This document shows, in pieces, positions 5,875-60,580 of a DNA stretch of 64,000 bases. A model generated the notes under the pieces. It searched no databases. It was not told the DNA's origin and worked only from the letters and a program-made list of their open reading frames with translations. This stretch comes from Flavobacterium sp. GSB-24 (GTDB lineage Bacteria; Bacteroidota; Bacteroidia; Flavobacteriales; Flavobacteriaceae): the NCBI RefSeq assembly GCF_027924665.1, contig NZ_AP027043.1, positions 4,650,001-4,714,000 of the forward strand, read 5' to 3'. Each line of letters starts with the position of its first letter. Positions within the stretch are counted from its first letter, which is position 1. Position numbers and translations under genes: made by a program.

Positions 5875-5882
5875 TACATTTG
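5875..5882 (+). promoter_or_regulatory. -7 promoter element (TAnnTTTG)
   Basis: TACATTTG matches the Bacteroidota -7 box TAnnTTTG exactly and lies 26 bp before the ATG of the small membrane protein gene. I see no good TTTG -33 box at the usual 19-21 bp spacing. Confidence 0.45.
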
Positions 5883-5908
5883 AATAAGAACTTTTAAATC
5901 TAACAATC

Positions 5909-6103
5909 ATGAACCTAAAAAGATTTTTCGGAGGATTATTGACAATCCTAGGAATAGTAGGACTTATATATACTGCTGTAATTTTTGCCAGCACATCTGG
6001 AGAAACGAGAGATATCAAATCATTAATTATCTACGGTGTACTAGGAATCGTTTTTTTTATGTCAGGAATCAGTTTGGTTCGTGCTACAAAAGATGAGGCT
6101 TAG
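5909..6103 (+). CDS. Small two-helix membrane protein
   Basis: A 64-residue protein made almost wholly of two hydrophobic helices (about residues 7-27, FGGLLTILGIVGLIYTAVIF, and 38-58, LIIYGVLGIVFFMSGISLV). A short polar loop (STSGETRDIKS) separates them and the tail is charged. It resembles small inner-membrane proteins common in Flavobacteriia with no assigned role. A TAnnTTTG -7 box precedes it. Confidence 0.7.
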   Translation: MNLKRFFGGLLTILGIVGLIYTAVIFASTSGETRDIKSLIIYGVLGIVFFMSGISLVRATKDEA

Positions 6104-7462: not shown

Positions 7463-7500
7463 GAAGCAGGTTTAGATAGTTTCACAAATATATAAAAAAT

Positions 7501-7833
7501 GCAGACCTATAAGCCGGATTCTGTTCTTGTCTCATTTTACAACGAGACAATACCTTATCATTTATCTAGATCATGCATTACTGCATGACTCAAGCTACCT
7601 ACCCTTCAGCAACGGACGAGAAGCCCTTAAATGCTGATATACTTGGTATTTCACCGCATAGAGTTTACCTGTTTTCACTACAGCATTACCTGTACATACT
7701 TTCTGCTGCACTTGTCCTAATCCCGATCCCGAGACTTCGGGACGAGACCGACGGGTGTTACCCGCTATGCTTCTCTGTGGTGTCCGGACTTTCCTCCCTC
7801 CCAATAAATTGGAACGACGATAAGGCGGTCTGC
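7501..7833 (-). ncRNA. rnpB: RNase P RNA (type A)
   Basis: The catalytic RNA of RNase P, which trims tRNA 5' ends. Reading the minus strand, the universal P4-region sequence GAGGAAAGTCCGGAC is followed by a GGTAACACCC hairpin (P8-like), then GTGCAGCAGAAAG. The 3' end is AATCCGGCTTATAGGTCTGC. The 5' GCAGACC pairs with 3' GGTCTGC to close P1, which fixes both ends. A TACTTTTG -7 promoter box lies immediately upstream (7838-7845) and a T-rich stretch follows the 3' end. The helix after P8 (probably P9) contains TCCCGAAGTCTCGGGA, a variant of a palindrome dispersed in intergenic regions. Open frames crossing this segment are not genes. Confidence 0.95.
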
Positions 7834-7959
7834 GCGGCAAAAGTACAATTTTATCACTTAACTATATTGGTTTTAAATTTCCGATTTTATGAGTTCATCA
7901 TAACTTTTTAATTTTAAATTAGTTATCTTTAAAAATCTATTAATTTAAATTCAGTTATC

Positions 7960-33937: not shown

Positions 33938-34111
33938 ATGCAAAATAAAATACTAAGATTGTTAATGGTATTCGTTATACTATTTTCATTTACAAGCTGC
34001 GAACTAGTAGGAGACATTTTTAAAGCCGGAATGGGATTCGGGATATTTATCGTAATTTTTATTGTTGCGATTATAATCTGGATTTTCGCAAAAATGTTCG
34101 GACGTAAATAA
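33938..34111 (+). CDS. Small lipoprotein with a C-terminal membrane helix
   Basis: A 57-residue protein starting MQNKILRLLMVFVILFSFTSC, so Cys21 sits in a lipobox (FTSC). After a short linker (ELVGDIFKAG) comes a second hydrophobic helix MGFGIFIVIFIVAIIIWIF with a basic end KMFGRK. Similar tiny proteins in flavobacteria carry misleading enzyme names; nothing here is enzymatic. A good terminator follows. Confidence 0.75.
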   Translation: MQNKILRLLMVFVILFSFTSCELVGDIFKAGMGFGIFIVIFIVAIIIWIFAKMFGRK

Positions 34112-37078: not shown

Positions 37079-37834
37079 ATGACGTTTCCTTTTCAATTTG
37101 AAATTTTTGAAAAAACTTTTTACTGGCATTTTATATTTGAAACGTTAGCTTTTTTTGTTGGAATAAGAATGTATTATTTTTTAAAAAAGAGAACTCAAGA
37201 TTCAATATCAGACACCAATCGTTTAGTTATTATGATCGGAGCAATGGTTGGAGCGTTGATCGGATCGCGATTTATTGCTTTATTAGAAAATCCATCTCAA
37301 ATAACCCATCAAACTTTTTTAACCTTATATCAAAATAAAACGGTTGCAGGCGGGTTTCTAGGAGGATTATTTGGTGTCGAGCTTATAAAAAAAGCGATTG
37401 GAGAAAAATCTTCGTCGGGAGATTTATACGTAATTCCAATAATAACTGCTTTGTTTATTGGACGTATTGGATGTTTTTCGATGGGAATGGCAGAACCTAC
37501 TTACGGGATAGAAACTAACTTTTTTACAGGAATTAATTTAGGTGACGGTTTAAAAAGACATCCTATTGCATTATACGAAATGTTTTTCATGATTCTGCTT
37601 TTCATCTTTTTTCAAAGTATAAAAAATAAAGCTCTGCTGAATGGTGACCGTTTTAAAATCTTTATGATTTTATATTTTCTGTTTCGTTTTTTAATTGAAT
37701 TTTTAAAACCATACGAGCCTTTGCTGCTTAATTTGAGCAGTATACAATGGAGCTCTATCTTAATTTTTGTTTACTATTGGAAATTTCTTTACAGGGAATT
37801 TCCTTTAGCTATAAATAAAAAACGTACTTTATAA
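37079..37834 (+). CDS. Lgt-like membrane protein (divergent prolipoprotein diacylglyceryl transferase family)
   Basis: A 251-residue polytopic protein with about seven helices and the general Lgt outline: IGSRF near 62-65, GGFLGGLFG near 91-99, GRIGCF at 128-133, RHPIALYE near 160-167, and FRFLIEF near the C-terminus. True Lgt transfers diacylglyceryl from phosphatidylglycerol to a lipobox cysteine. Two residues required in E. coli Lgt seem changed: the HGG histidine (H103) aligns with Leu94, and the GRxGNF asparagine (N146) with Cys132. The arginine of GRxG and the FR...E pair are kept. It lies 15 bp before a Tes-like radical SAM gene. I infer a lipid-handling protein that is not the housekeeping Lgt. 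Confidence 0.82.
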   Translation: MTFPFQFEIFEKTFYWHFIFETLAFFVGIRMYYFLKKRTQDSISDTNRLVIMIGAMVGALIGSRFIALLENPSQITHQTFLTLYQNKTVAGGFLGGLFGVELIKKAIGEKSSSGDLYVIPIITALFIGRIGCFSMGMAEPTYGIETNFFTGINLGDGLKRHPIALYEMFFMILLFIFFQSIKNKALLNGDRFKIFMILYFLFRFLIEFLKPYEPLLLNLSSIQWSSILIFVYYWKFLYREFPLAINKKRTL

Positions 37835-37849
37835 CATAAAAATATTTTA

Positions 37850-39238
37850 ATGAAAACTCGCGACTATATATTTTACGATTACACCAAGAGTCTATGTCAT
37901 AAATGTCTGGCACTTGTAGATACAAAAATTGTATTTCAGGACGATAAAGTTTGGATGCTCAAACATTGTAAAACACATGGTGAATCAAAGTCGATGATTG
38001 CGGATGATGTAAATTATTATAAACAATTACGTAATTACAACAAGCAGTCTGAAATGCCCTTAAAATTCAATACAAAAGTGCATTACGGATGCCCTTACGA
38101 CTGCGGATTATGTACAGATCATGAACAGCATTCTTGTCTGACAATTGTAGAAGTTACAGACCGATGTAATTTAGCATGTCCTACTTGCTATGCAAACTCA
38201 GCTCCAAACTATGGAAGACACCGGACTTTAGAAGAAATAGAAAAAATGTTTGATGCTGTTGTGGCTAATGAAGGAGAACCCGATGTTGTTCAGATTTCTG
38301 GAGGAGAACCAACAGTACATCCAGAATTTTTTAAAATTTTAGATATAGCCAAAAGCAAACCAATCAAGCATTTAATGCTTAATACAAATGGTATTCGAAT
38401 TGCAAAAGACATCAAATTTGTAGAAACATTGGCTACGTATATGCCTGACTTTGAAATTTATTTGCAGTTTGACAGTTTTAAACCAGAAGTATTAGAAAAA
38501 TTACGAGGCGAAGACCTAACAGAAGTACGCAAAAAAGCAATAGAAAATTTAAATCAGTTTAATATCTCAACCACACTAGTAATCACACTGCAAAAAGGAG
38601 AAAATGACGATGAGATTGGAAAAATAATTGAGTATGCATTACAACAGAAATGTGTTCGTGGTGTCACTTTTCAACCTACACAGGTTGCAGGCAGAAATGA
38701 CAACTATGATGATATTTCGGGAAGAATAACCTTGACAGAAGTACGAAGAAAAATTTACGAGCAATATCCACTTTTTACACCTCAGGATCTCATTCCTGTT
38801 CCTTGTAATCCAGACGCTTTGTGTATGGCATATGCTCTTAAAATAGATGGCGAAGTTTTTCCAATGACTCATTTAATAAACCCAGAAGATTTGTTAAACA
38901 ACTCAAAAAATACAATTGTTTTTGAGCATGATGAAAAACTAAAAACACATATGCTTAACTTATTTAGTACTGGTATTTCTGTGGATTGTGCAGAAGGAGA
39001 ATTTAATGAATTGATGTGCTGTCTGCCAAGAGTTCAGTCAGATACCTTGAATTATAATAATTTATTTCGAATTTTAATTATGAATTTTATGGATGCCCAT
39101 GATTTTGATGTAAGAGCTGTAAAAAAATCATGTGTTCACATTGTAAGCGATAAAATGAAAATTATTCCTTTCGAAACCATGAATTTATTTTACAGGGATA
39201 ATAAAATTGAAAAAATCCGACAAGAATTAACTGTCTAG
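37850..39238 (+). CDS. Radical SAM protein of the tetraether lipid synthase (Tes)-like group
   Basis: A 462-residue cytoplasmic radical SAM enzyme. N-terminal metal site: Cys16, Cys19, Cys40 and His43 (CHKC...CKTH), reminiscent of the rubredoxin-like iron site of archaeal Tes. Next, CPYDCGLC (Cys81, 85, 88), then the radical SAM motif CNLACPTC (Cys106, 110, 113), GGEPTVHPE (151-159) and IYLQFDS. Further cysteines at 319, 325, 380, 390-391 and 428 could hold an auxiliary cluster. The GLC..H...CL.I.EVT..CN..CP.C layout matches the MJ0619/Tes family, which couples lipid tails through radical chemistry. The gene directly follows the Lgt-like gene, and two tiny membrane proteins come after. The actual substrate is unknown; this is annotation by motif layout. 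Confidence 0.85.
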   Translation: MKTRDYIFYDYTKSLCHKCLALVDTKIVFQDDKVWMLKHCKTHGESKSMIADDVNYYKQLRNYNKQSEMPLKFNTKVHYGCPYDCGLCTDHEQHSCLTIVEVTDRCNLACPTCYANSAPNYGRHRTLEEIEKMFDAVVANEGEPDVVQISGGEPTVHPEFFKILDIAKSKPIKHLMLNTNGIRIAKDIKFVETLATYMPDFEIYLQFDSFKPEVLEKLRGEDLTEVRKKAIENLNQFNISTTLVITLQKGENDDEIGKIIEYALQQKCVRGVTFQPTQVAGRNDNYDDISGRITLTEVRRKIYEQYPLFTPQDLIPVPCNPDALCMAYALKIDGEVFPMTHLINPEDLLNNSKNTIVFEHDEKLKTHMLNLFSTGISVDCAEGEFNELMCCLPRVQSDTLNYNNLFRILIMNFMDAHDFDVRAVKKSCVHIVSDKMKIIPFETMNLFYRDNKIEKIRQELTV

Positions 39239-39255
39239 TTATTTAAATTAGAAAT

Positions 39256-39429
39256 ATGGAAGCATTAATACTTATTGGCGTTATTTTTACAGCAATGTTC
39301 TTGATTGGTCTAATTGGTTTAATTTTTAGAAAAGAAGACAAAAAATTTTATCTAACCTTAATGTTAATTCCTGTTGTCTTTGCTGTAATTGGATTTGGAA
39401 CATGTGCATTAATAATAAGCGGTCTGTAA
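39256..39429 (+). CDS. Tiny membrane protein A with IGFGTCA motif
   Basis: A 57-residue protein with two membrane helices (ALILIGVIFTAMFLIGLIGLIF and LMLIPVVFAVIGFGTCALII) joined by FRKEDKKFYLT. It starts 17 bp after the radical SAM stop. The second helix carries AVIGFGTCA, repeated as FVIGFGTCA in the next gene, so the two are paralogues. The shared cysteine is a candidate site for modification or metal binding (inference). Confidence 0.72.
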   Translation: MEALILIGVIFTAMFLIGLIGLIFRKEDKKFYLTLMLIPVVFAVIGFGTCALIISGL

Positions 39430-39465
39430 CTTTATAATTTAACTCACCTAGAAAAAGATCTAAAT

Positions 39466-39663
39466 ATGGGAGATTTTTTAGCTTCAGCAGGATGTCTAGC
39501 TGCCTTAGCAAGTGTACTTGCTTTTTTTATCGGATTATTCCGTTTGATATTTATATCAGATGACAAAAATACATCATTAAAAATAATCTTGTATTCTGTG
39601 ATTGGTTTTGTAATTGGCTTTGGTACATGTGCTGCAAATTTTTCATTGGGAGGAATGCACTAA
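39466..39663 (+). CDS. Tiny membrane protein B with IGFGTCA motif
   Basis: A 65-residue protein with two membrane helices (CLAALASVLAFFIGLFRLIF and ILYSVIGFVIGFGTCAANF), a loop ISDDKNTSLK, and the tail SLGGMH. It shares topology and the VIGFGTCA motif with the gene 36 bp upstream. A terminator follows at once, so it closes the four-gene operon. Confidence 0.75.
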   Translation: MGDFLASAGCLAALASVLAFFIGLFRLIFISDDKNTSLKIILYSVIGFVIGFGTCAANFSLGGMH

Positions 39664-39667
39664 AAAA

Positions 39668-39692
39668 AACCTGGCAATAAAAATTGCCAGGT
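39668..39692 (+). terminator. Terminator of the Lgt-like/radical SAM operon
   Basis: AACCTGGCAA, loop, TTGCCAGGTT: a perfect 10-bp stem 5 bases after the last stop codon. The following T-run is weak (TTCAT) but an A-run precedes. Confidence 0.7.
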
Positions 39693-39840
39693 TCATAATG
39701 CGCTAGTTGAGGCAAAAACCAAATAACAAATTACCTCAATTCACAGCATTTAAGAAATAAAAATTAGGTTAAAAAATAAATAACCAAACTCAATTTTAAC
39801 CGTCCCAATTTTCTTATTTCTAAATTTTCAATCATTTATA

Positions 39841-42800
39841 TTAGTTTAGAAAGTTCATTACTTTCAATGACTTTTTGTGACCTGATTTATCTGTTACTAT
39901 TACAACAAAAATTTGTTTACTAGCAAAACTCGGGCTATTAAGTAGTACCTCTTTGTTGTTTTGAATATTTCTATGACTTGTAACAGTTTGCCCTATTGTA
40001 TTAAATACGTCAACTTGAGTAATATCTCCTGTTTCATTCGCTACTGATAAGGTATTGTTTTTAAAATAAGCTACTGTCGCATTACTTTCAGCCGAAATAT
40101 CGTCCACCGCTAATGTTTTTGCTGTAGCTTGTGACGCAAAATAAGCCGCGTACGCTTTAGATAATTCAGATGAATTACCGCAAGAAGATGCATCCCAGTT
40201 TACAGACCAAGTCATTAAACCTCTTAAAGAAGGATATGGCCCGCCTGGCTGCAGAGTGTATGTTCTTCCTGAAAAAGTAGTTCCGTTTCTTAAATAATCC
40301 ATAGCATTAATTCCTTCTGTAGGAGTTAAGTAACCGCTGCCTGCTGCGCTCGGACAAGCTGGTAATGCAATAAGAACTTTTGAGGCTGGTAAACCATCAA
40401 AATGCATTCCCGTCGAAGCAATGTTGTACCCTTTTATTATCATATCAGTTAAGGCTGTTACCATGTTTGCTTTCTTAGCCGTTCCATAATATTGACCATC
40501 TAATCCGTTTTCTCCTCCCGTATTATATAACTGTACAGCTAACAAATCCAGTTCATTACGTAAGTTTTGAATGATTGGAAGAAATGATCCGAAAGTATCA
40601 GTATAAGTAGTATATCCTCCTTGTACATATTGTGTTTCTGGAGCTGCGGTTAATAAAAATCCAGGGCCATAGTATGCTTTTAATTCTTTAAAAGCATCTA
40701 CTACGTTTTTCAATCTTGGATAAGCAGAAATACCCGCATACGAAATATCTCTTAAATTTCCTGCACTAAAATTCATCGATCCGCCTTCAAAATCAATATC
40801 AACTCCATCAAATTGATACTCGTCGATAATTGCTTTTAGACCATTAACAAAAATATTTTTTTGAGTTACATTGTCTAAAACAACATGACCATTTTGACCT
40901 CCAATAGAAACAATAACAGGAACTCCGCTGTCTCTTAAGGATTTTATATCGTTTTTCAACAATTGCTTATTGAAAACGCCATTAGTCAAATATCTAGTGT
41001 CATTTGTAGTTAATACTGGTGTATAACCATCACGATTAACTGTTTCTACGAAAGAATAATCCACTACGTTAAACTTACTTCCTACCATTTGAGAAAAATA
41101 TAAAAATGGAGCAGCAGTATTTTCCCAAGAATGTGCATATCCTAAAATAACTTTAGATGGAAGCGGAATGAATCTATTCGTGCTTACTGGAGCAATTTTA
41201 ATGGTATTGTTGAATGTAGTTACCGCAGCTTTATTATCCGTCGCTTTGATTACAACTGGATAATCCTGATATGCAGATGGTGTAAAATTATACGTATAAG
41301 TATTATTTGTACCTGCTGTCATGTTAAATGTACCTCCGTTTATTGTAATTGTAACACCCGAAACTGATCCGTCACTATCAACAGCTGTAACAGAAATTGG
41401 CACAACTTGGAAAGAACTTTGGTTTACAGTTGTGTTCGATGGTGAATTCCAATTAATGACAGGCACTGCATTTGGACAGTTTGCACCTGAACAAGTCAAT
41501 GTAAAACTATATGTTTTTGAATCTGTTGTTCCGTTTGATGCCGTAGCCGTAACCGTTAATGTATGAGAAAGCGCAAACTGATTTGCAGCTGGTGTCCAAA
41601 CCGCTGTATAAGTTCCAGAAGAATTAGTAGCGCTCAAATTTTGTCCGTCTAAACTAAATGCAACAGAAGAAATTGTAGTGGCATCTGCAGCACTTAATCC
41701 AACACTTGCAACAAAATTAATTGATGATCCTAAATTTATAGCAATCGCCGAAGCTGTTGGCGCTGTAATGGCAACCACTGGTTTAGTCGCAACCACCGCT
41801 TGTGTATTGAAGTTATAAACTGTCGGAGTAGTTGGCACAGCAAAGTTTGCTAGATTATTTGGAAAATAAGCTACTTCTCCATTTTGCCATGAATTTAATT
41901 TCAAACTTAAAACCTGTGTATAACCCGCTACAACTGAATTATCAAAAGTATAATTTCCTGATGCATCTGTTGTTGCCAAAACACTTTTCCAGTTATGAGT
42001 ATTATCTGTCCATGGTAAAACCAATTCAACTTTAGCATTTGCTACTGGGGTTGAACCATTTTTCACAGTTCCGCTAATTAAATTTGCAGCCATTGCTAAC
42101 GCTGCTTTAGCTGTTGAACTGGTATTGAAATTATAAACCGTTGGATTGGCAGGAACAGGGAAGTTTGCTAGATTATTTGGAAAATAATTTACTTCTCCGT
42201 TTTCCCAAGTATTTAATTTTAAACTTGTAACTGTTGTATAACCTGCTACAACTGAATTATCAAAACTGTATTTTCCTTGCGCATCGGTTACAGCAATAAC
42301 GCTTTTCCAGTTGTGTGTGCTGTCTGTCCAAGGTAAAACCAATTCTACTTTAGCACCAGCAACTGGAGTTGTTCCATTTTTAACCGTTCCGCTAATTTTG
42401 TTCGTTCCAACTACCACTACATCTTGAGAGAAGTTTAATGTTTTGTTGGCATTCAAATTAGAATAAACTGTCGAAGCCGGCGTATACGTTTGACCTGTTA
42501 AGGCTGCGGTTACTGTATAATTTCCGCCTGACGGTAAACTAAGTGAGTAAACTCCGCTTGCATTTGTAACAGCAGCATAACTTCCTCCTGTAAAAGAAGC
42601 TGTAACAGTTACTCCTGAAACGGGAGTTGTATTGTTTAAAACAGTTCCGCTTACGGTATAATTAACAACTGCTGCACCTTGTGTAAAATTCAACGTTTTG
42701 TTTGCGTCGATAGCATTATAAACTGTTGAAGCTGGAGCATAAGAGAATCCAGTTTTTGCAGCTGTTACTGTAAAGTTAAGTCCTGCTGTTAAACCTGCGA

Positions 42801-44592
42801 TGCTGTAAACGCCGCTTGCGTTTGAAACTGCTGTTAATGTTGTACTTCCTGAAACTGCAGAAACAGTTACGCCAGAAACTGGAGTTGTTCCATTTAAAAC
42901 TGTTCCACTAACTGTATACGTTGGCTGAGTTCCATTAATAACTACTGCAGTTTGATTAACTGTAACGTTTGTTAAAGTTACAGGAGTAAAACTATAAGTC
43001 GTTTTTAAAGCTGTTAATGTATAGTTTTGTCCCGAAGTTAGATTGTTGAATGTAAAATTTCCTCCTGTAGAAACCACAGTTTGAATAACAGTATTACTTG
43101 CATTACGCAATTCAACCGTAACATCTGGAATTAAAGCTGATCCGTTTTTTACAGAACCTGAGATACTTACTGTTCCAGCAACAATGCTTCCGAAAGAAGT
43201 ATCAACCTGTGTTAGTAAAGAATTTGGAACTGAACCTCTGGTATCCTGAGATAATTCCCAAACCATACCTCCAGCTAAATTTCTTGATTTTATATATTGT
43301 ACTTTTAAATCCATTGACTGCTTATCTTCATAAGAGATAAACTGTTTTAGAGTCGAATTGTACAAATAAGGAACTTTGGTTGTATTATCAAAGTAACGTA
43401 CCCAGCCTGCTGAAGCCGCAGCTGGAGTAACTAACATAGTATTTGGATCTAAATAAGGATGAGAATTTGTAACTGGATTTCCGACTAAATCGCAGATTTC
43501 AATACTTCCTGATTTTTCACACGCTGCAGGACCATCCCATGTACCTGTTGGATTTTGCGGATTGGTACATCCAGCAACAATATCTCTTGGTGCAGAAACG
43601 AATAATCCAGGTAAATTTGGATTGGTTCCGTTATTTGCCACATGGTCAAATTTCTTTCCGTAGAAAGGAAGCCCCATGATTAATTTATTTGCAGGAAAAC
43701 CAACTACGTTTAAATATTGATTTGTTAGTTCATCTAATGATTCTGATTGTGTTGCGCCATAAAGCGGATCGTTTGTGTTTCCACTTGAATATAAAGGTGC
43801 GTTGTAGCATGTTTTGTCATACCAGTTCCCGCCAAAATCATATCCAAAATAAGTTATATAATCGCAATACGTCGAAATATCTTCTGTCATTCCGTATTGT
43901 GATCTGTTTGTTGGTCCTAAATATTGCTGTGCTACTTTTCTAACGTTGTTTCCAGCAGCAATTGTAATTAATTTATTTGGCATTGCCTGACGCATTGCTT
44001 TTAATAAGTATACCAAGTTTTTGTTGTCATCAGGACTGTATTTTTGCGGAGGAATTGGAGCTCCGTTAATCACTTCTGTACCATCAGTTCCTCCAGAAAG
44101 AGGATATTCCCAATCAATGTCAAAACCATCAATAAAAGGATAGGTAACAATAAAGTTTGCCATATCTGCAGCCAAAGCAGCTCTTGCCACTGGGCTTGCT
44201 GCAATTGGAGAAAGATCCTGACCTTTCGTCCAACCTCCTACAGAAATTAAAACTTTTAAATGAGGATACTTTTGTTTGAGTTTCATTAGGTCATAAAAAT
44301 TACCTTTAACAGGAGCATCCCACGGAATTCCACCTTCCATATGCTCAAAATCAGCATAGGTATCCAAGCATTGTAATTTTGTATTCTCAGGATGGGCAGG
44401 ATCATAACTTGTGCCATAAAAAGAATAATTCAAATGCGTCAATTTACTTCCATCAATTTTGGGAATATTAAAATCCCTAGCATAGATAGACCATTGTGCA
44501 TAATATCCCACTACTTTTTTTCCGTGAGCTGGTTGTGCCAACGCGAGCATGGGAAACAGTAACAAAAAGAGCAATCTGTAATAATGTTTCAT
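39841..44592 (-). CDS. chiA: Secreted dual-GH18 chitinase with T9SS sorting domain
   Basis: A 1583-residue chitinase like F. johnsoniae ChiA. Signal peptide 1-19 (FPMLALAQ). The first GH18 domain (about 24-470) has DGFDIDWE with catalytic Glu162. Residues about 475-730 hold three or so carboxypeptidase-regulatory-like repeats (GSVKNGSALIPDVTVELR; SGTVLNGTTPVSGVTV). Two nearly identical modules follow (VELVLPWTDSTHNWKSV and its copy), 318 bp apart, possibly chitin-binding. Ig-like domains come next. The second GH18 domain (about 1130-1490) has DGVDIDFE with catalytic Glu1269. The last 75 residues are a type A T9SS sorting domain (VDVFNTIGQTV..., ending KKSLKVMNFLN). Two catalytic domains on one chain suggest endo/exo cooperation on crystalline chitin. 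It is the last gene of the chitin locus, behind a long leader. Confidence 0.96.
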   Translation of the reverse strand: MKHYYRLLFLLLFPMLALAQPAHGKKVVGYYAQWSIYARDFNIPKIDGSKLTHLNYSFYGTSYDPAHPENTKLQCLDTYADFEHMEGGIPWDAPVKGNFYDLMKLKQKYPHLKVLISVGGWTKGQDLSPIAASPVARAALAADMANFIVTYPFIDGFDIDWEYPLSGGTDGTEVINGAPIPPQKYSPDDNKNLVYLLKAMRQAMPNKLITIAAGNNVRKVAQQYLGPTNRSQYGMTEDISTYCDYITYFGYDFGGNWYDKTCYNAPLYSSGNTNDPLYGATQSESLDELTNQYLNVVGFPANKLIMGLPFYGKKFDHVANNGTNPNLPGLFVSAPRDIVAGCTNPQNPTGTWDGPAACEKSGSIEICDLVGNPVTNSHPYLDPNTMLVTPAAASAGWVRYFDNTTKVPYLYNSTLKQFISYEDKQSMDLKVQYIKSRNLAGGMVWELSQDTRGSVPNSLLTQVDTSFGSIVAGTVSISGSVKNGSALIPDVTVELRNASNTVIQTVVSTGGNFTFNNLTSGQNYTLTALKTTYSFTPVTLTNVTVNQTAVVINGTQPTYTVSGTVLNGTTPVSGVTVSAVSGSTTLTAVSNASGVYSIAGLTAGLNFTVTAAKTGFSYAPASTVYNAIDANKTLNFTQGAAVVNYTVSGTVLNNTTPVSGVTVTASFTGGSYAAVTNASGVYSLSLPSGGNYTVTAALTGQTYTPASTVYSNLNANKTLNFSQDVVVVGTNKISGTVKNGTTPVAGAKVELVLPWTDSTHNWKSVIAVTDAQGKYSFDNSVVAGYTTVTSLKLNTWENGEVNYFPNNLANFPVPANPTVYNFNTSSTAKAALAMAANLISGTVKNGSTPVANAKVELVLPWTDNTHNWKSVLATTDASGNYTFDNSVVAGYTQVLSLKLNSWQNGEVAYFPNNLANFAVPTTPTVYNFNTQAVVATKPVVAITAPTASAIAINLGSSINFVASVGLSAADATTISSVAFSLDGQNLSATNSSGTYTAVWTPAANQFALSHTLTVTATASNGTTDSKTYSFTLTCSGANCPNAVPVINWNSPSNTTVNQSSFQVVPISVTAVDSDGSVSGVTITINGGTFNMTAGTNNTYTYNFTPSAYQDYPVVIKATDNKAAVTTFNNTIKIAPVSTNRFIPLPSKVILGYAHSWENTAAPFLYFSQMVGSKFNVVDYSFVETVNRDGYTPVLTTNDTRYLTNGVFNKQLLKNDIKSLRDSGVPVIVSIGGQNGHVVLDNVTQKNIFVNGLKAIIDEYQFDGVDIDFEGGSMNFSAGNLRDISYAGISAYPRLKNVVDAFKELKAYYGPGFLLTAAPETQYVQGGYTTYTDTFGSFLPIIQNLRNELDLLAVQLYNTGGENGLDGQYYGTAKKANMVTALTDMIIKGYNIASTGMHFDGLPASKVLIALPACPSAAGSGYLTPTEGINAMDYLRNGTTFSGRTYTLQPGGPYPSLRGLMTWSVNWDASSCGNSSELSKAYAAYFASQATAKTLAVDDISAESNATVAYFKNNTLSVANETGDITQVDVFNTIGQTVTSHRNIQNNKEVLLNSPSFASKQIFVVIVTDKSGHKKSLKVMNFLN
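41800..42400 (-). repeat. 318-bp tandem duplication inside chiA
   Basis: Two adjacent 106-codon units encode SGTVKNGxTPVAxAKVELVLPW..., ending NFAVPxxPTVYNFNT. They are much closer to each other than to the other linker repeats, so they arose by a recent duplication. Confidence 0.85.
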
Positions 44593-45066
44593 AGTTAATA
44601 AATATTTGATTAATAGAAAATAAATAATTGGGCCGCAGATCTCAAAAGCATCTGGGTTTCGCTCAACTGCAGGTTGGAAGGCTGCTGTCGACTGGGAAAT
44701 AAACTCAAATTACATTCTATAGATAAATATTACTATTACCGATTTTTTATAATCAATAGCAAATAGTAGTGATTGATATTTATTTATAATTTTTAAAAAA
44801 TTAATATTAAATACAAATGATAAATTTGGGACGACTCATCAATCTATACTCTTCTTTTTGTCATGTTTTTTTATTCTTTCTATTTGGTTTTTTAAAGGTT
44901 AATACTCTATTATTGGTTATTTTTTATACTTACTTATGACTTGAATTCATTTTAAAATTCTAATTTGTAATTACCTCTGCCAAATAATTATGGCAGAGAT
45001 AATCACCACTCTTAAAAAAACATTAGCAGCTTTAAAAACGTACTAAATACTAATTCAAATCCAACT
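44593..45066. other. Long gap upstream of chiA with a GC-rich leader
   Basis: No reading frame is plausible. On the minus strand the last 110 bases before chiA include a GC-rich segment (about 44632-44700: CAGTCGACAGCAGCC..., AACCCAGATGC, GAGATCTGCGGCCC) that stands out from the AT-rich surroundings. It can form CAGAT/ATCTG and CAAC/GTTG stems. It may be a structured 5' leader of chiA. Nothing else is recognisable. Confidence 0.4.
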
Positions 45067-47133
45067 TTAAATTAATTTCTTCAAACTCTCATAAACAGAT
45101 AATTCTACATCTGCATGATCTTTTGTGTTGCATTGTTCTATTAAACCTTTTAAATCTGCTGTCTTTAATGTCGATTTATTATCTAAAACCAATAATAATT
45201 CTTGTGACGCATCATTTAATTTTTTTGACAAAGGCAGTAATGGCTGTATCAATGGAGCATTTGCACTTAGTTTTGTTAACTCTTGATGTACTGCAATCCA
45301 TTTTGTGAAATAGGCTGCTACTTTAGCTTTATTATCTGCCGATTTATTTGCTAAATATTGATTTACAGCCGCGTTAAATCCTAAAGCATCTTTGGCATCT
45401 GGTCCGCATGCATCTGCAAATAAGGTAAATGGAGAATACATTTGATATTCCGTTCCGCCTTTGTTACGTGTATATCCTTTTAGTGGTTCAGTAACATTTG
45501 AAAATTCTTCAAGCGCTTTAATATCTTGATTATTGGCAATATTTCTTAAAATCACATCTTTATTTCGAATATGTGTAAGCCCTAATTCTTCCAATCTGAA
45601 AGAAACCGATTCTAAACGTTTACGCATATTCTCTACATCGGCAACATCTTCTGCGGACCAAAGTCTTTCTGCAATTGCAGCTGTTCTTGGCCAAAGTCTA
45701 GAGTCTATTGTTGTAGAGGTTACTAATTCTGTCCACATTGTTGCTTCTCCGCCAAGGATTCTAGCCTTTTCTTCTGCGGTTAAATTCGCTCCTTTTGGCA
45801 TCGGATCATTTAAATAATGACTAGCAATTGGATACATCAAATCGATATAATACCCATTTGATAAAACTGTTTTATAACCTTTTTTTACCGCGTCTACCAA
45901 AGACTGGCCGGCCGCCATTCCTTCGTTTGGACCTCTCCATGAATGTACAATAGCTTCTTTAGATAAATCTTTGGTTAAAATTTCTTCCCATCCCATTAAC
46001 TGTTTTCCGTGTTTCTTTAACATTGGAGCCAGCTGCATCGTGAAATAAGTTTGTAACTCGTGATTGGTTTTTAAGTTGTGTTTCTTTTTAAATTCTTGAA
46101 TTTTAGGGTTTGCATCCCAATCTTTTCCTTCGTTTTCATCTCCTCCAATGTGGAAATAAGCTCCAGGAAATAACGGACAAACCTCATCAAAAACTTCACT
46201 TAGAAGTTGATATGTTTTAGGATTTGAAGGATCTAACGTAGGCGAAAAAATACCAGCATTTCTTTCAATTCCATAGGTAGCGATTGCTGTACCTTGAATA
46301 TTTTTTTCGGATGTTCCTCCTGTCAAAGTAATTACTTTACTTCCTATTTCTGGATAAGCTGTTAAAATTGCTGATCCGTGACCTGGGACATCTATTTCTG
46401 GAACTATTAAAATACCACGCTCATCTGCGTATTTTACGATATTTTTAATTTCCTCTTGTGTGTAATAAAGTCCATCCGAAGCTAATTCGGTAAACTTTGG
46501 GTGTTTTTTCATTTCGATTCTCCAGCCTTGATCATCAACCAAATGCCAATGAAAAACATTCATTTTCATAGCTGCCAAAGCATCAATATTTCTTTTGATA
46601 ACATCAATTGGCTGAAAATGTCTTGAAGCATCAATCATTAAGCCTCTCCATGTAAATCTTGGAAAATCTGAAATTTTTGAAGCTGGAAAATAAAATGAGG
46701 TCGAATTATTTTGAAGTATTTGCAATAATGTCTCAAGTCCATGCAAAGCTCCTAAATCACTCGAAGCATTTAAAATAATTTTATTCGAAGCAATATCTAA
46801 ATGATAACTTTCATCTTCATATAAACCAATTTTACCATTTTTTGTACAATTGATCTGCAATTCTGCATTCGGAACTTCATTTAATTTGGAAATAAAACCT
46901 TGTTCAAAAAATATACCTGTTCTACCATCTAAACGGCGCAAAAAACGAGTTACTCCACCAAAAATTCTTGGATTTGGATTACCAGTAATGTTTACTTTAA
47001 AATTTTTAGTTAAATTAAAATTACCTTCATTAATAACAAAGTTCTGAGGCCAAGGCATAAGATTGAGCTGCTCTTTCTGAATTTGAGCACCTGCAGATAT
47101 ACCTGCAAATAATAGTACAAATAGATATTTCAT
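45067..47133 (-). CDS. GH20 beta-N-acetylhexosaminidase
   Basis: A 688-residue exported enzyme. The signal peptide is MKYLFVLLFAGISAGAQ. An N-terminal GH20b-like domain covers about 25-150, then a TIM barrel (FTWRGLMIDASRHFQPIDVIKRNIDALAAMKMN, HWHLVDDQGWRIEMKKHP). The catalytic pair is Asp332-Glu333 in HIGGDE. A C-terminal helical region ends the chain. It cleaves terminal GlcNAc from chito-oligosaccharides, probably in the periplasm after SusCD import; there is no T9SS domain. It lies between nagB-PIG-L and chiA on the same strand. Confidence 0.96.
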   Translation of the reverse strand: MKYLFVLLFAGISAGAQIQKEQLNLMPWPQNFVINEGNFNLTKNFKVNITGNPNPRIFGGVTRFLRRLDGRTGIFFEQGFISKLNEVPNAELQINCTKNGKIGLYEDESYHLDIASNKIILNASSDLGALHGLETLLQILQNNSTSFYFPASKISDFPRFTWRGLMIDASRHFQPIDVIKRNIDALAAMKMNVFHWHLVDDQGWRIEMKKHPKFTELASDGLYYTQEEIKNIVKYADERGILIVPEIDVPGHGSAILTAYPEIGSKVITLTGGTSEKNIQGTAIATYGIERNAGIFSPTLDPSNPKTYQLLSEVFDEVCPLFPGAYFHIGGDENEGKDWDANPKIQEFKKKHNLKTNHELQTYFTMQLAPMLKKHGKQLMGWEEILTKDLSKEAIVHSWRGPNEGMAAGQSLVDAVKKGYKTVLSNGYYIDLMYPIASHYLNDPMPKGANLTAEEKARILGGEATMWTELVTSTTIDSRLWPRTAAIAERLWSAEDVADVENMRKRLESVSFRLEELGLTHIRNKDVILRNIANNQDIKALEEFSNVTEPLKGYTRNKGGTEYQMYSPFTLFADACGPDAKDALGFNAAVNQYLANKSADNKAKVAAYFTKWIAVHQELTKLSANAPLIQPLLPLSKKLNDASQELLLVLDNKSTLKTADLKGLIEQCNTKDHADVELSVYESLKKLI

Positions 47134-47283
47134 TTTTCTTTTTTTTGGTTTGGATAGTTTTTAAGTATCCTAAATTTATTAAAAAAACAAAACTCAGAGA
47201 GATTTCTGCATTACCTCACTTTTGCGATGAGACCAATCTGAATTTTGTTATTTGATTCATTTTTAAATGAATCGGAAAAAATT

Positions 47284-49221
47284 TTAGTAATCAAAACGTT
47301 TAAAAGCTTCTATTGCCTCATATTCAGCCAAACCTAATTCATCATATAATATGGCTGTATTTTTGTTTCGATCTTCTGCTCTAACCCAGAATTCCCTAGA
47401 ATCATTTCCTTGAAACATAACCCTGTCTTTTTGAGACTGATGGTATAAAATCGCATGACGTTTTAATAAAACTTCAGAAGGGCTTAAAGGAACAGCCATG
47501 TCAATTTCATGAATATCCCATTCGTGCCAAGCTCCTCTGTAAAGCCATAGCCAACAATCGTCCATGTAAGGCTCATGTTTAAGTTCTTTTAATGCAGCGA
47601 ATATCGCATTTAAGCACACCTCATGAGTTCCGTGTGGATCTGCAAGATCTCCAGCAGCGAAAACTTGATGTGGTTTTATTTTAGCAATAATATCTTTTAC
47701 AATGGCAATATCTTCTGGACCTAATGGATTTTTCTTAACCTGTCCAGTTTCATAAAAAGGAAGATCTAAAAAGTGTGTATTCTCATCTTTCAACCCAATA
47801 TATCTTGTTGCAGCATAAGATTCTCTTCTTCGAATAAGTCCTTTTAATTTTCTAACTTCAAGAGAATCAATTTGATTTTCTGATTTATTGTTTAGAAATT
47901 TAATTACTTCTTTAAAATTGATATCAGATTCACCTTTACCAATAAAATCACTGGCAACTTCTGCAAATTTTAATGCTTCGTCATCTGTAACGGCAATATT
48001 TCCTGAAGTTTGGTAAACCACATGAACATCGTGACCTTGCTTGATTAATTTTGAAAATGTTCCTCCCATAGAAATAACATCATCATCGGGGTGCGGGCTA
48101 AAGAGAATTATTCTCTTTTTTGCAGGATTTGCTCTTTCGGGACGATGCGAATCATCTGTGTTTGGTTTTCCTCCAGGCCATCCAGTAATAGTGTGCTGCA
48201 AAATATTAAACATATTAATGTTCATATCATAAGCAGAACCTTCCTGTGCCAAAAGATCAGACATTCCGTTATTGTTGTAATCACGGTCAGTCAATTTTAA
48301 AATAGATTGTTTTGTTTTTTGACACAACCAAACAATTGCTTTACTTTTTAATTCAGGTGTCCAAAGGCATTCTCCAACTAACCAAGGCGTCTTGAAACGG
48401 GTTAATTCTGAAGCTGCAGACTGATCTAAAACGAAAGTTGCGTTTGGATGATTTTGTAAAAATGTTGCTGGAACCTCTGAGCTGATATCTCCTTGAATAG
48501 TTCTCTTAATGATATCGGCTTTGTTCTGTCCCCATGCCATCAAAACAATACGTTTTGATCTCATAATGGTTGAAACTCCCATTGTAATGGCACGTTTTGG
48601 TACATTATCAATACCATTAAAAGCTGATGAAGCATCTACTCTCGTGATATGATCCAGTGTAATAATTCGGGTTCCAGAATTGATATGCGAACCCGGCTCA
48701 TTAAAACCAACATGCCCTGTACGTCCAATTCCTAATAGTTGGAAATCAAGACCGCCTGCATTTTTAATATTCATTTCATAATCGATACAATATTGATTGA
48801 TTTCGTCAATTCCTACTGTACCGTCTGGAATATTAATATTCTCGGGTTTGATATCAATATGATTAAAAAGATGCTGATGCATGAAATAGTGATAGCTCTG
48901 ATTATTCTCTTTAGTCATCGGATAATATTCATCCAAATTAAAAGTAATTACATTGCTAAAACTTAGTCCTTCTTCTCTGTGCATTCTCACTAGTTCCTCA
49001 TAAACTTTAATAGGCGAAGAACCTGTAGCAAGACCTAAAACACAAGATTTATTTTTTTCTTGTTTAGATCTAATTAGCTGCGCAATTTCCTGTGCCACAA
49101 TTACAGAAGCTTCTATTGAGCCTTTGAAAATTTCGTTATGAATTTTCTCAAATCGAGTTTCCTCAAATTTTCCCGCGCTTTTGTAACTGATATCAGGTTT
49201 TATTTCTAAAGCACTTTTCAT
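47284..49221 (-). CDS. nagB: NagB-PIG-L fusion: glucosamine-6-phosphate deaminase with deacetylase-like domain
   Basis: A 645-residue cytoplasmic fusion. Residues about 30-310 are a NagB domain: GLATGSSPIKVYEEL (54-77 region), NLDEYYP with Asp97 (E. coli Asp72), and GIGRTGHVGFNEPGS. In that loop E. coli Asp141 is replaced by Thr168, while His170 and Glu175 are kept. Residues about 370-640 are a PIG-L/LmbE zinc deacetylase domain with HPDDD (377-381) and the paired His530/His533 in DPHGTH. NagB turns GlcN-6-P into fructose-6-P and ammonia. PIG-L enzymes remove acetyl from GlcNAc groups. No nagA is nearby, so the fusion could do both deacetylation and deamination (inference). Long forms like this are widespread in Bacteroidota. 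Confidence 0.9.
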   Translation of the reverse strand: MKSALEIKPDISYKSAGKFEETRFEKIHNEIFKGSIEASVIVAQEIAQLIRSKQEKNKSCVLGLATGSSPIKVYEELVRMHREEGLSFSNVITFNLDEYYPMTKENNQSYHYFMHQHLFNHIDIKPENINIPDGTVGIDEINQYCIDYEMNIKNAGGLDFQLLGIGRTGHVGFNEPGSHINSGTRIITLDHITRVDASSAFNGIDNVPKRAITMGVSTIMRSKRIVLMAWGQNKADIIKRTIQGDISSEVPATFLQNHPNATFVLDQSAASELTRFKTPWLVGECLWTPELKSKAIVWLCQKTKQSILKLTDRDYNNNGMSDLLAQEGSAYDMNINMFNILQHTITGWPGGKPNTDDSHRPERANPAKKRIILFSPHPDDDVISMGGTFSKLIKQGHDVHVVYQTSGNIAVTDDEALKFAEVASDFIGKGESDINFKEVIKFLNNKSENQIDSLEVRKLKGLIRRRESYAATRYIGLKDENTHFLDLPFYETGQVKKNPLGPEDIAIVKDIIAKIKPHQVFAAGDLADPHGTHEVCLNAIFAALKELKHEPYMDDCWLWLYRGAWHEWDIHEIDMAVPLSPSEVLLKRHAILYHQSQKDRVMFQGNDSREFWVRAEDRNKNTAILYDELGLAEYEAIEAFKRFDY

Positions 49222-49327
49222 TTCTTTTCTTTTTTTGTAGTAATTACCATTTTGGTTTTAAGAATGGTATAGACAACTTTCGCCGCCTATACCATACTAC
49301 TAACCAAACTCAATATCTTTGTTTTTT

Positions 49328-50893
49328 TTAGAAGTTTGCTTTATCAACATCCCACCAAAGTCTTGTAGCTCCATTATCTGGACCGCCAAGTTTACTTAAA
49401 CCAGATTCGATACCTTCTTTATTATTGTTAATTTCTGATTGTGAAAAACCTAATCTACGAACTCCTAATTCAGTGCTTATTAAACCACCACTTTTATTAT
49501 TGGTAATTCTAAACAATTTTGGATAACCAGTTCTTCTGAATTCTGACCAGGCTTCCTGACCATCAGGATAAGTCGCAATCCATTTTTGAGTAATAATTTT
49601 CTCAAGATTTTCCTCATTAGTTGCTCCCCACGCGACAGTAACTTTAGAAACAGCTGCTGCGTTGTTGGCTGCATTAAGCGGATCAACATAATCTTTAGGT
49701 TTTTTAGTATTGTCTGCAATATAAGCAGCTGCTCCTTCAACACCATTTTGGTCAAAAGATGCTTTTATACCAGCTTCATATAAATCTTTAGCAGTTCCTC
49801 CCATGTTCCAACCTCTTAAAGCACCTTCAGCTCTTAAGAAATAAACTTCAGATGTTGACATCCATGTAATTTCTCCTGTTTTAGTTCTTGAGGCAGTTTT
49901 AGAAAATTTACCATAAGTCGTTCCTGTTGGATAAACAATACCTGTTCTAACTCCTTTGTATTCTCCTGGAGTAACTTCAGAAGTCTCCCAATATTTAGCC
50001 ATACGAGGATCTTCATACCCGCCTAAAATAGACTCCATATCCGCTCCCATAAATAAACCAGCCCAAGCGTGGCTCATTACATCGATCACATTTAAATCTA
50101 CTGGAGACTTAACTTTCATAAGATCTGCAACCGTTGTGAAAACACCAATAGGATTATTTACTGCTTTTTCTGCTTCTGTTTTTGCTAGTGCAGGATCTAC
50201 TTTTGAGATACGCATTGCCATTCTTAAACGAAGAGAATTCGCATATTTTACCCATTTCTCATAGCTTCCTTCGTAAGTAGATAAATCTGTTTCATCAAAC
50301 GATGTTTTTTCATTAGCCGCAATTCTTTTAGACAATTCCGCAACTGCGAAATCCAGATCTTTAAACATCTGAGTGTAAATTTCCTGCTGAGAATCGTATG
50401 TCGCTACTTCACTTCCAAATTTAGAGTAAACTGCAGGTCCATACATATCCGTAATTCTCTGCATTGTAGCCGCTTTAAATATTAAAGACCATGCATAAAA
50501 CTGATCAAATTTACCTTTAGATCTTTGCTCTACTTTGTATAAATATGCAATAATGTTTACATAAGCATCGTCCCAAGCATAACTGTTCCATCCAACATTT
50601 AGAGCATAATCATGATTATTAAATGCTCCAAAAGGAACTGGTGTAGTCATATAACCAGACCAACCATCTGCCTGCAAACTTTGCTGCAATTGATATTGCC
50701 AAGTTACATCACAAATATACATTCTGTTAAAAGCAGGTTTAAACAAGCTTTTTATACTATTATAATCTTGATCTAATTGCTCTGTTGTAGCCCCAGTGGG
50801 ATTTGTATTAATCTCCTCAAAATTATCTGTACAACCTACAGCTGCTAGTAAAGAGAAGCAAATTGCTGTTTTTTTAAATTTATTTAGTGTCAT
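49328..50893 (-). CDS. SusD-like chito-oligosaccharide-binding lipoprotein
   Basis: A 521-residue surface lipoprotein of the SusD/RagB type (SusD-like 2 group). The signal MTLNKFKKTAICFSLLAAVGC gives lipobox Cys21, followed by TDNFEEINTNPTGATTEQL, the usual start. Tryptophan- and tyrosine-rich TPR-like helices follow (YQLQQSLQADGWSGYM). It starts 10 bp after the SusC gene, forming the SusCD pair that captures and imports oligosaccharide. The locus context says chitin fragments. Confidence 0.95.
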   Translation of the reverse strand: MTLNKFKKTAICFSLLAAVGCTDNFEEINTNPTGATTEQLDQDYNSIKSLFKPAFNRMYICDVTWQYQLQQSLQADGWSGYMTTPVPFGAFNNHDYALNVGWNSYAWDDAYVNIIAYLYKVEQRSKGKFDQFYAWSLIFKAATMQRITDMYGPAVYSKFGSEVATYDSQQEIYTQMFKDLDFAVAELSKRIAANEKTSFDETDLSTYEGSYEKWVKYANSLRLRMAMRISKVDPALAKTEAEKAVNNPIGVFTTVADLMKVKSPVDLNVIDVMSHAWAGLFMGADMESILGGYEDPRMAKYWETSEVTPGEYKGVRTGIVYPTGTTYGKFSKTASRTKTGEITWMSTSEVYFLRAEGALRGWNMGGTAKDLYEAGIKASFDQNGVEGAAAYIADNTKKPKDYVDPLNAANNAAAVSKVTVAWGATNEENLEKIITQKWIATYPDGQEAWSEFRRTGYPKLFRITNNKSGGLISTELGVRRLGFSQSEINNNKEGIESGLSKLGGPDNGATRLWWDVDKANF

Positions 50894-50903
50894 GATAGTA
50901 AGA

Positions 50904-53900: not shown

Positions 53901-53945
53901 TTGCGCCGTAAAAACAATCATAAAGATTAAGAAAATTTTTTTCAT
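50904..53945 (-). CDS. SusC-like TonB-linked outer membrane transporter
   Basis: A 1013-residue SusC/RagA protein. Signal peptide (ends VSLAQ, about 1-20); N-terminal carboxypeptidase-like domain 22-105 ([21 protein letters not shown]); plug with [20 protein letters not shown]-type region and the characteristic [29 protein letters not shown]; barrel ending [10 protein letters not shown]. With SusD it takes up chito-oligosaccharides using TonB energy. It is first of the five-gene minus-strand chitin operon. Two operator-like repeats lie about 66-97 bp upstream of the start. Confidence 0.96.
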
Positions 53946-60300: not shown

Positions 60301-60457
60301 TTTGAAAAATTATGAGTTTTGAGTTATAAGTTATGAGTTGGTTCATTGAGGTAAAATTTCAACCTCTAACTAATAACTTTTAACTTTACGAAGTCCCAAA
60401 AATAAAAAAATCCTCCTGATAAGGAAGATTACAAATTAAATTTATTCTAAAAAAAAA

Positions 60458-60551
60458 TGGCAAGCGACCTACATCGCACCGCTCAACCACGTACCCTTGC
60501 TATGTTCCCATCCTGGGGGAGTCTGCAGGAGCTGGTCGTGTAGGACTTGCC
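60458..60551 (-). ncRNA. ffs: SRP 4.5S RNA
   Basis: The RNA of the signal recognition particle, partner of Ffh. On the minus strand the tip reads CAGG-AUG-GGAA-CAU-AGCA, the exact architecture of the Ffh-binding domain (E. coli CAGG-UCC-GGAA-GGA-AGCA). The ends pair as GGCAAG/CTTGCC and CCTACA/TGTAGG to form one long hairpin. A TATATTTG -7 box (60556-60563) is placed to start transcription right at the 5' GGCAAG. A T-run follows the 3' end. Confidence 0.93.
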
Positions 60552-60555
60552 GGTG

Positions 60556-60580
60556 CAAATATACAACCTTTTTATATTTT
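60556..60580 (-). promoter_or_regulatory. ffs promoter
   Basis: Minus-strand CTTG, 19 bases, TATATTTG: a good Bacteroidota promoter whose -7 box ends 5 bp before the SRP RNA. Confidence 0.7.

Follow-up and report, generated by a model that had tools for sequence, protein, structure and literature searches.

A conserved operon in Flavobacterium and its relatives links an Lgt-like protein, a Tes-like radical SAM enzyme, and small membrane proteins with a C-terminal cysteine

A window of DNA from Flavobacterium sp. GSB-24 (i.e., the whole stretch analyzed here: 64,000 nucleotides, positions 4,650,001 to 4,714,000 of contig NZ_AP027043.1, forward strand) contains four genes that encode an Lgt-like integral membrane protein (P0001), a Tes-like radical SAM protein (P0002), and two small membrane proteins with a cysteine near the C-terminus (P0003 and P0004; Table 1). 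These genes form a genuine operon that is conserved far beyond the host genome (5.35 Mb in two contigs), and its assignment to lipid or lipoprotein modification is well supported. We tentatively propose a dedicated three-component system, in which the small protein would be the substrate, the Lgt-like protein would lipidate its cysteine, and the Tes-like enzyme would modify or couple the lipid tails, a scheme that we regard as plausible if still short of probable. An earlier annotation made from the letters and translations alone (the sequence-only reading) had described four tightly spaced genes. This layout is present on the + strand, with intergenic gaps of 15, 17, and 36 bp, and since all four genes are kept in the nearest relatives (L005 and L013), the arrangement is not a product of chance.

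The two enzyme genes are linked in most of the loci that we collected. The set comprised 113 radical SAM loci (L004 to L008 and L013 to L120), of which 110 are distinct (the duplicate pairs are L017/L078, L018/L081, and L024/L102); L041 to L120 are the best 80 of 584 relatives and are skewed to close kin. A same-strand Lgt-like gene was found in 105 of the 113 loci (102 of the 110 distinct loci); 103 of these genes lie upstream of the radical SAM gene, and 91 are within 300 bp of it. Among the eight loci lacking a linked Lgt-like gene, the sequence available upstream is shorter than 900 bp in three (L059, L061, and L074), two (L021 and L038) have the gene on another contig of the same genome, and three (L065, L075, and L088) have no Lgt-like gene in reach within more than 5 kb of upstream sequence.

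At the genome level, we examined a sample of 395 Bacteroidota genomes with cut-offs set after seeing the score gap (i.e., E ≤ 1e-100 for the radical SAM protein and E ≤ 1e-70 for the Lgt-like protein). The radical SAM gene was detected in 31 genomes, the Lgt-like gene in 32, and both in 31 (Fisher p = 2.8e-45, with the genome of the window included and the cut-offs post hoc). The two genes are present though unlinked in G072 and G310, and G134, a divergent additional genome, carries both side by side; the Lgt-like profile used here (A2) was built partly from linked genes and may miss unlinked divergent members. Evolutionary distances of the two proteins are correlated (r = 0.89 over 98 distinct loci), to which shared species history contributes; when duplicates were included (101 loci), the permutation maximum was 0.09. 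Rare co-occurrence of the four genes, which would have spoken against the sequence-only reading, was not observed: co-occurrence is almost perfect for the enzyme pair (31 of 31 genomes) and extends to the small cysteine protein in most loci, but not in all.

P0002 combines the Pfam Radical_SAM domain with the zinc-ribbon domain HMPTM, which we take to be an older name of MJ0619, today called Tes. The highest-scoring NCBIfam model is TrsS (318.7 bits; residues 12 to 450), followed by Tes (277.1 bits), with the rest far lower; both scores are under the curated cut-offs (490 and 450 bits, respectively). Among sequences in the PDB, the top match is Tes (7tol; phmmer E = 5.8e-64) over nearly the full length, and a profile search with the P0002 family likewise points to Tes. 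The AlphaFold model of P0002 (predicted local distance difference test [pLDDT], 74.7; predicted template modeling score [pTM], 0.82; some low-confidence stretches) matches 7tom/7tol best (E = 6.9e-32; template modeling score [TM], 0.76; 27 to 28% identity), and the next structure is MoaA (E = 1.1e-8). Sequence, profile, and fold searches therefore all favor the Tes group, as had been suggested, over a peptide- or cofactor-maturing family. Among the best 25 of 59 families, the top peptide-maturase model was WgkB, which covered the core only and scored 66 bits against a cut-off of 650 bits; given such scores and the near full-length match to Tes in sequence and fold, a peptide maturase is disfavored. 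On the basis of its sequence and predicted fold, P0002 is classified as a Tes-like enzyme of a separate subfamily, outside the curated Tes definition. A defense-system reading was rejected, as PADLOC gave just a resemblance to viperin across the radical SAM core of P0002 and a weak 2TM match for P0004 (E = 0.0061).

The predicted architecture of P0002 consists of an N-terminal rubredoxin-like Cys3His site, an N-terminal auxiliary cluster motif, a CX3CX2C radical SAM core, and a C-terminal domain, and the motifs pointed out earlier (i.e., CNLACPTC, CxxC...CxxH, and CPYDCGLC) are present. At the motif level, three of the four metal sites of Tes are retained at equal spacing. The rubredoxin-like CX2CX20CX2H site (C16, C19, C40, and H43) matches the spacing of C9/C12/C33/H36 in Tes; the auxiliary CX3CX2C motif is formed by C81, C85, and C88, accompanied by the conserved H91 and H94; and the radical SAM cluster cysteines are C106, C110, and C113. 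Candidate ligands of the C-terminal cluster (C319, C390, C391, and C428) are invariant, in a C-terminal third where the model has block pLDDT values of 31 to 84. The labile Met439 of Tes corresponds to M411, a residue shared by 48 of 48 close members in the alignment, while L039 and L040 have a threonine at this position (residues were mapped by hand counting on the HMMER alignment, after a shift of 20 positions to account for the expression tag). Passages of the Tes study (PMC9433317) describe a hydrophobic pocket that admits the lipid tails. Since this characterized member of the group binds lipids and couples their tails, the radical SAM protein of the operon, by analogy, probably acts on alkyl chains.

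P0001 has the Lgt outline that the sequence-only reading assigned to it (PF01790; 82.5 bits, gathering cut-off of 24.9), and it scores well below the cut-off of the lgt equivalog TIGR00544 (32.8 versus 118.9 bits). The only PDB fold match of its AlphaFold model (pLDDT, 93.0; pTM, 0.88) at E ≤ 0.001 is E. coli Lgt (5azb; E = 2.7e-5; TM, 0.56). A separate lgt elsewhere in the genome had been anticipated, and the host genome encodes two further PF01790 proteins that score 222 and 197 bits, compared with 82 for P0001. Likewise, each of the 33 genomes with the Lgt-like gene (the 32 at 1e-70 and the divergent G134) has at least one additional PF01790 protein.

Residues of the Lgt-like family were compared with the complementation data for E. 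coli Lgt as given in parts of PMC4728403. Arg143, Arg239, Tyr235, Glu202, Gly142, Gly145, Gly154, and Pro197 (E. coli numbering) are invariant in all 67 family members, in which position 243 is Glu or Asp and position 246 is Lys or Arg. Arg143 and Arg239, the catalytic pair, correspond to R129 and R203 of P0001. As had been noted for P0001, the HGG histidine (His103) and the GRxGNF asparagine (Asn146) are lacking; they are missing in 67 of 67 members, all of which have a cysteine at position 146, and Tyr26 is replaced by histidine in 64 of the 67. Six other Bacteroidota genomes (L141 to L146) have one PF01790 match each; these proteins are apparently the sole Lgts of their genomes, with a cysteine at position 146 in all six and a tyrosine at position 103 in five. 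Since these single-PF01790 genomes show similar substitutions, the loss of His103 and Asn146 alone is no sign of a dead or exotic Lgt. For this reason, and because neither the catalytic arginines nor most of the buried network vary across the family, we ruled out P0001 as an inactive relic. In L049 (Flavobacterium davisii), the Lgt-like gene is split into two open reading frames (ORFs; approximately 5289 to 5979) beside an intact radical SAM gene, which may reflect operon decay or a sequencing error.

The third component is a small membrane protein that is encoded beside the pair, mostly directly 3' of the radical SAM gene. It diverges quickly, so that BLAST often fails between genera, and none of seven small proteins (P0003, P0004, and five from other loci) belongs to a Pfam or NCBIfam family above the cut-off. 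With a small-protein profile, we recovered two clear members in the host genome (P0004, E = 1.3e-25; P0003, E = 1.7e-18), the next hit being at E = 0.36. The near-constant feature is a last helix, located behind a basic loop, that runs into G-x-G/S-x-Cys and a short tail (e.g., LIGLGIC-GTLLS, LVGYSIC-SSMRFPH, and VIGAGAC-AVILSNLTINH). This cysteine is invariant in 17 of 17 sequences of alignment A6; in the window, its codons are at 39403 to 39405 (Cys50 of P0003) and 39628 to 39630 (Cys55 of P0004).

We scored the ending with the motif [GSA]x[GSAF]xC near the C-terminus, which was set after viewing the sequences, in 111 loci (L039 and L040 were left out). It was found in 95 loci, 12 were negative, and four were unassessable because the contig stops less than 400 bp from the radical SAM gene (i.e., 95 of 107 assessable loci); on distinct loci, the counts are 92 positive, 12 negative, and four unassessable (92 of 104). 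As a control, the motif occurs in 25 of 983 other small membrane ORFs from these loci, a set in which many ORFs are not genes. A version of the test with a hydrophobicity cut, which gave 83 of 111 loci, lost visibly conserved members and was replaced by the sequence motif. By eye, eight of the 12 negative loci have a variant cysteine ending (L008, L030, L033, L034, L037, L038, L116, and L118), L110 is ambiguous, and L021, L060, and L088 have no cysteine ending.

The distribution of charges orients this segment in the membrane. Over 134 small proteins, the stretch 17 to 38 residues before the cysteine contains 418 lysines and arginines, while 27 follow the cysteine. By the positive-inside rule, this bias would place the loop in the cytoplasm, and we infer from it that the cysteine is on the periplasmic face, the side on which Lgt works; according to parts of PMC4728403, the enzyme acts within the half of its cavity that faces the periplasm. 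The spacing between the last lysine or arginine and the cysteine (median, 17 residues) may be compared with that in 14 lipoprotein-like signal peptides of the same loci (median, 14.5). Because a near-fixed cysteine that is predicted to be periplasmic is placed as in a prolipoprotein and is encoded together with an Lgt paralogue, we read the small protein as the dedicated acceptor of the Lgt-like enzyme, an assignment for which we consider the chances to be balanced. The presence of at least two small-protein copies in 35 loci fits what substrates would show. The sequence-only reading had likewise arrived at lipid or lipoprotein modification, and that part is well supported; the small proteins, which it had named without giving them this role, are here considered the likely substrate and not accessories.

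The same three components recur in distant relatives. In L121 to L123, where the radical SAM protein is 38 to 41% identical, the Lgt-like gene is 3' of the radical SAM gene and is followed by a small protein (endings LFGAC-IIGLGG, IFGSC-LSILFNPK, and LFGAC-MVGIGG). An ICMT-type methyltransferase and a DUF4395 protein are encoded in between in L122, and a similar DUF4395-like protein was recognized by eye in L121 and L123. G134 (34%) has the order Lgt, small protein (LLSGGMC-IFLPQPL), and radical SAM. Phyla beyond Bacteroidota were sampled via plasmid records, among which the trio was found in Actinomycetota (approximately 31%; Mycobacterium avium pS2b, Mycobacterium branderi pJCM12687, and Nonomuraea), with endings ILTAGIC-TGLNP, VLSAGYC-TGLNP, and ILSAGIC-TGINP. 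The two mycobacteria have the order Lgt, small protein(s), and radical SAM, and in Nonomuraea the cysteine ending terminates a longer proline-rich protein ahead of Lgt. Adjacency of the pair is thus seen in two phyla and in three gene orders. A looser cysteine test detected the right protein in all seven distant trios; of four Tes-like loci without an Lgt neighbor (L125, L126, L132, and L135), two gave no match and the remaining two each yielded a single dissimilar ORF. The tree fits a single Lgt-linked lineage with weak support (72/84, long branches).

Carriers of the operon include Flavobacterium, Pedobacter, Chitinophaga, and Chryseobacterium species, and the closest named relatives of P0002 are from Flavobacterium and Flavobacteriaceae contigs (L041 to L044; 95 to 97% identity). 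Two versions of the operon occur within Flavobacterium. L014 and L058 are 85 to 87% identical to the window type, while others are only 67 to 69% identical (L006, L007, L020, L022 to L024, L026, L027, L029, L091, and L102); Pedobacter versions (e.g., L046, L047, and L052) are 83 to 86% identical. The window type is thus about equally near to the Pedobacter versions and to L014 and L058, with the other Flavobacterium versions well apart, a pattern that suggests horizontal transfer. No carriage by viruses or phages was found in searches of viral contigs (104 pattern matches, none confirmed) and of a phage collection (no match at E = 1e-10).

Taken together, these components suggest the following scheme. 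The substrate would be the small two-helix membrane protein, of which the window encodes two divergent copies. Its second helix would mimic a lipoprotein signal peptide (i.e., a basic cytoplasmic loop, a hydrophobic stretch, small residues [G-x-G-x], and a cysteine at the periplasmic face), with this signal-like segment forming the C-terminal end of a protein that is already in the membrane. The Lgt-like enzyme would move a (diacyl)glyceryl group from a phospholipid onto the thiol, and the Tes-like enzyme would take hydrogen from the alkyl chains of the lipid, before or after this transfer, whereupon the tails would be modified or coupled. Iso-branched tails are candidates: passages of PMC8941075 state that iso-branched C15 chain ends match phytanyl ends, and, according to parts of PMC10025309, isolates of Flavobacterium and Pedobacter are rich in iso-C15 chains, there as 3-hydroxy acids. 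The result would be a small membrane protein whose lipid anchor is chemically altered and possibly joined at its tails. Of this scheme, the genes with their linkage and co-occurrence, the predicted folds, the conserved residues, and the cysteine motif are observed; the periplasmic position and lipidation of the cysteine, the lipid tails as target of the radical enzyme, the sequence of steps, and the product are proposed.

Several observations weigh against this scheme. Its weakest point is topological: the radical SAM enzyme is cytosolic and the cysteine predicted to be periplasmic, so coupling needs either tails that meet in the middle of the membrane or a flip of the lipid. Tyr459 of Tes, which is fully conserved among 1,000 archaeal homologues according to a passage of PMC9433317, corresponds to Ile431 in P0002 and is an isoleucine in 14 of 14 sequences. 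The sequence-only reading had the radical enzyme modify or couple acyl chains; the Tes-like identity behind that idea stands, while coupling is a step that we still infer, with this tyrosine replaced. In the Lgt-like family, V, M, A, or L mostly occupies position 103, where E. coli Lgt has a histidine that PMC4728403 describes as essential. The cysteine of the small proteins is C-terminal, and just two of 134 fit the lipobox [LVI][ASTVI][GAS]C, which rules out a canonical lipobox; the motif that describes their endings was, as stated above, chosen post hoc. Finally, G055 has the Lgt-like gene but neither a radical SAM match nor a recognizable adjacent small protein, and no small protein was found near the G072 genes or in L060 and L088.

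Four other explanations were weighed. The radical SAM enzyme may make an altered or tail-coupled free phospholipid, with the Lgt-like protein passing the glyceryl group of this lipid on to a small molecule or to another lipid and the small protein serving as a membrane dock or chaperone. Such a free-lipid pathway accords with the behavior of Tes, whose own substrates are free phospholipids of archaea and which also binds phospholipids from bacteria (passages of PMC9433317), with the proposal that bacterial Tes homologues make membrane-spanning lipids (passages of PMC8941075), and with the plentiful iso-C15 chains of Flavobacterium (3-hydroxy acids; parts of PMC10025309). However, it leaves unexplained both the near-fixed cysteine of the small protein and its multiple copies in 35 loci, and we consider it unlikely, if less so than the other three.

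Maturation in the manner of ribosomally synthesized and posttranslationally modified peptides (RiPPs), in which the radical SAM enzyme would modify the small protein, for instance at its cysteine, and the Lgt-like protein would be a membrane partner, appears improbable. Divergent tandem small genes beside a radical SAM gene do resemble those for precursor peptides, and SkfB, a RiPP maturase, is the second-ranked relative of P0002 among PDB sequences. However, the SkfB match is confined to the radical SAM core (E = 2.2e-6), whereas Tes matches nearly the full length and the full fold, and the cysteine is predicted to be across the membrane from the cytosolic enzyme. More improbable still is a role of the thiol without lipid, whereby an envelope stress system would employ the cysteine as a partner in redox reactions or sulfur donation or for a disulfide, with the Lgt-like protein turned into a scaffold that binds lipids. 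A single cysteine is present in 78 of 130 distinct small-protein sequences, and a thioredoxin-like gene lies just upstream of the operon on the other strand; this neighbor, at which no search was aimed, was noted in the window and in L005 alone, and the invariant Lgt active-site residues would be unexpected in a scaffold. Chance neighborhood or independent housekeeping functions, for which the three loci without an Lgt-like gene in reach might be cited, is practically dismissed by the co-occurrence in 31 of 31 genomes and by neighboring genes in three different orders across two phyla.

Comparisons with characterized systems delimit the proposed three-component system. P0002 resembles Tes (GDGT-MAS; MJ0619; 7TOL and 7TOM) in its near full-length homology and fold, the rubredoxin-like site, both CX3CX2C motifs, and the Met439 equivalent, but differs from it in its sequence (27 to 28% identity; Ile for Tyr459), in its score (277.1 of the 450 bits required), and in its setting in a bacterial host with Lgt-like and small-protein partners. 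TrsS (NF045646) is its highest-scoring curated model, although P0002 is under the 490-bit cut-off; L132 and L135, which are Tes/TrsS-like and were not scanned against the TrsS model, have a methyltransferase neighbor and no annotated Lgt, unlike the operon in the window. The Lgt-like family shares with Lgt (5AZB) the fold, GG at positions 104 and 105, and the eight invariant residues listed above; in contrast to Lgt, it has neither His103 nor Asn146, mostly has His for Tyr26, falls below the equivalog cut-off, and occurs as a paralogue beside other Lgts. The idea that comes closest for the small proteins is the MYXO-CTERM/myxosortase system, in which a C-terminal helix is accompanied by an invariant cysteine and Lgt-like lipidation is proposed by the authors (parts of PMC11980579). 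In that system, however, the cysteine comes before the helix, the orientation in the membrane is the opposite one, and cleavage is carried out by a CPBP protease (same parts of PMC11980579), whereas the small proteins of the window have the cysteine after the helix and a radical SAM partner. In a search of open-licence literature, no title or abstract opening described an operon of Lgt and a Tes-like enzyme or the small-protein family. Both enzymes come from known superfamilies; the system would be categorically new if the proposed product is shown. In its fullest form (i.e., a new class of posttranslational modification in Bacteroidota and Actinomycetota, in which a C-terminal non-lipobox cysteine is lipidated by a dedicated Lgt paralogue and the tails are joined by a Tes-type enzyme, with one another or with a second lipid, into a covalent macrocyclic or membrane-spanning anchor), the proposal is one that we regard as unlikely.

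The coordinates of the operon are given in Table 1. The sequence-only reading had placed the genes behind one promoter and before one terminator, and both details came out weaker than that. Sigma-70-like sites were at chance level (16 found versus 16.0 expected), and a by-eye check against the consensus revealed no complete flavobacterial promoter at the operon. A terminator scan returned three terminator-like sites versus 1.2 expected; the strong stem-loop at the 3' end of the operon has no T-run after it on the + strand and, as scored, is terminator-like for the convergent chitinase gene.

Table 1 Features of the operon in the window
Feature	Position	Strand	Basis or remark
P0001, Lgt-like integral membrane protein, 251 aa, proposed (diacyl)glyceryl transferase	37079..37834	+	PF01790; fold match 5azb
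P0002, Tes-like radical SAM protein, 462 aa	37850..39238	+	NCBIfam TrsS/Tes; PDB 7tol/7tom
P0003, small two-helix membrane protein, 57 aa, end VIGFGTC-ALIISGL	39256..39429	+	Cys ending common in related loci
P0004, small two-helix membrane protein, 65 aa, paralogue of P0003, end VIGFGTC-AANFSLGGMH	39466..39663	+	
Stem-loop 3' of the operon, T-run on the minus strand	39667..39694	.	Terminator scan

Other features of the window are as follows. A chitin-use cluster on the minus strand (39841 to 53945) adjoins the operon and encodes a GH18 protein with two GH18 stretches and carboxypeptidase-regulatory-like repeats, a GH20 hexosaminidase, a fusion of glucosamine isomerase with a PIG-L deacetylase, and SusD-like and TonB-dependent proteins. 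On the 5' side of the operon, a 57-aa single-helix protein with a lipoprotein-like signal start (FSFTSC; 33938 to 34111, +) is, by eye, unrelated to the small proteins. A 2,097-aa protein with SprB repeats, an HYR-like domain, and a type IX secretion signal (18365 to 24658, +) is presumably a gliding-type surface adhesin. Two structural RNAs were identified on the minus strand, namely a class A bacterial RNase P RNA (RF00010; 189 bits; 7494 to 7836) and a Bacteroidales small signal recognition particle RNA (RF04183; 92.6 bits; 60454 to 60559). An ORF on the other strand (7573 to 7911) overlaps the RNase P RNA and is therefore a doubtful gene.

The operon touches on the function of bacterial Tes homologues. 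Surveys, in the passages concerned, report such homologues as possible signs of the synthesis of branched glycerol dialkyl glycerol tetraethers (brGDGTs), without experimental proof (PMC8941075 and PMC11868695), and one of them applies thresholds of E below 1e-50, identity above 20%, and a length over 400 aa. Judged from its sequence, the lineage of the window would probably pass these thresholds (approximately 28% identity and E = 5.8e-64 versus MJ0619, with a query other than that of the survey). Because a lineage that would probably pass sits in the context of a lipoprotein enzyme, marker-gene counts may be mixing two systems. If the proposed tail-joined protein anchor is real, some of the bacterial Tes homologues that are currently interpreted as brGDGT makers would belong to this system. 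The operon offers a genetically tractable hypothesis that combines a dedicated acceptor cysteine with a transferase of its own and an enzyme for radical lipid chemistry; whichever way it turns out, the answer would inform the study of lipid biosynthesis or of protein lipidation.

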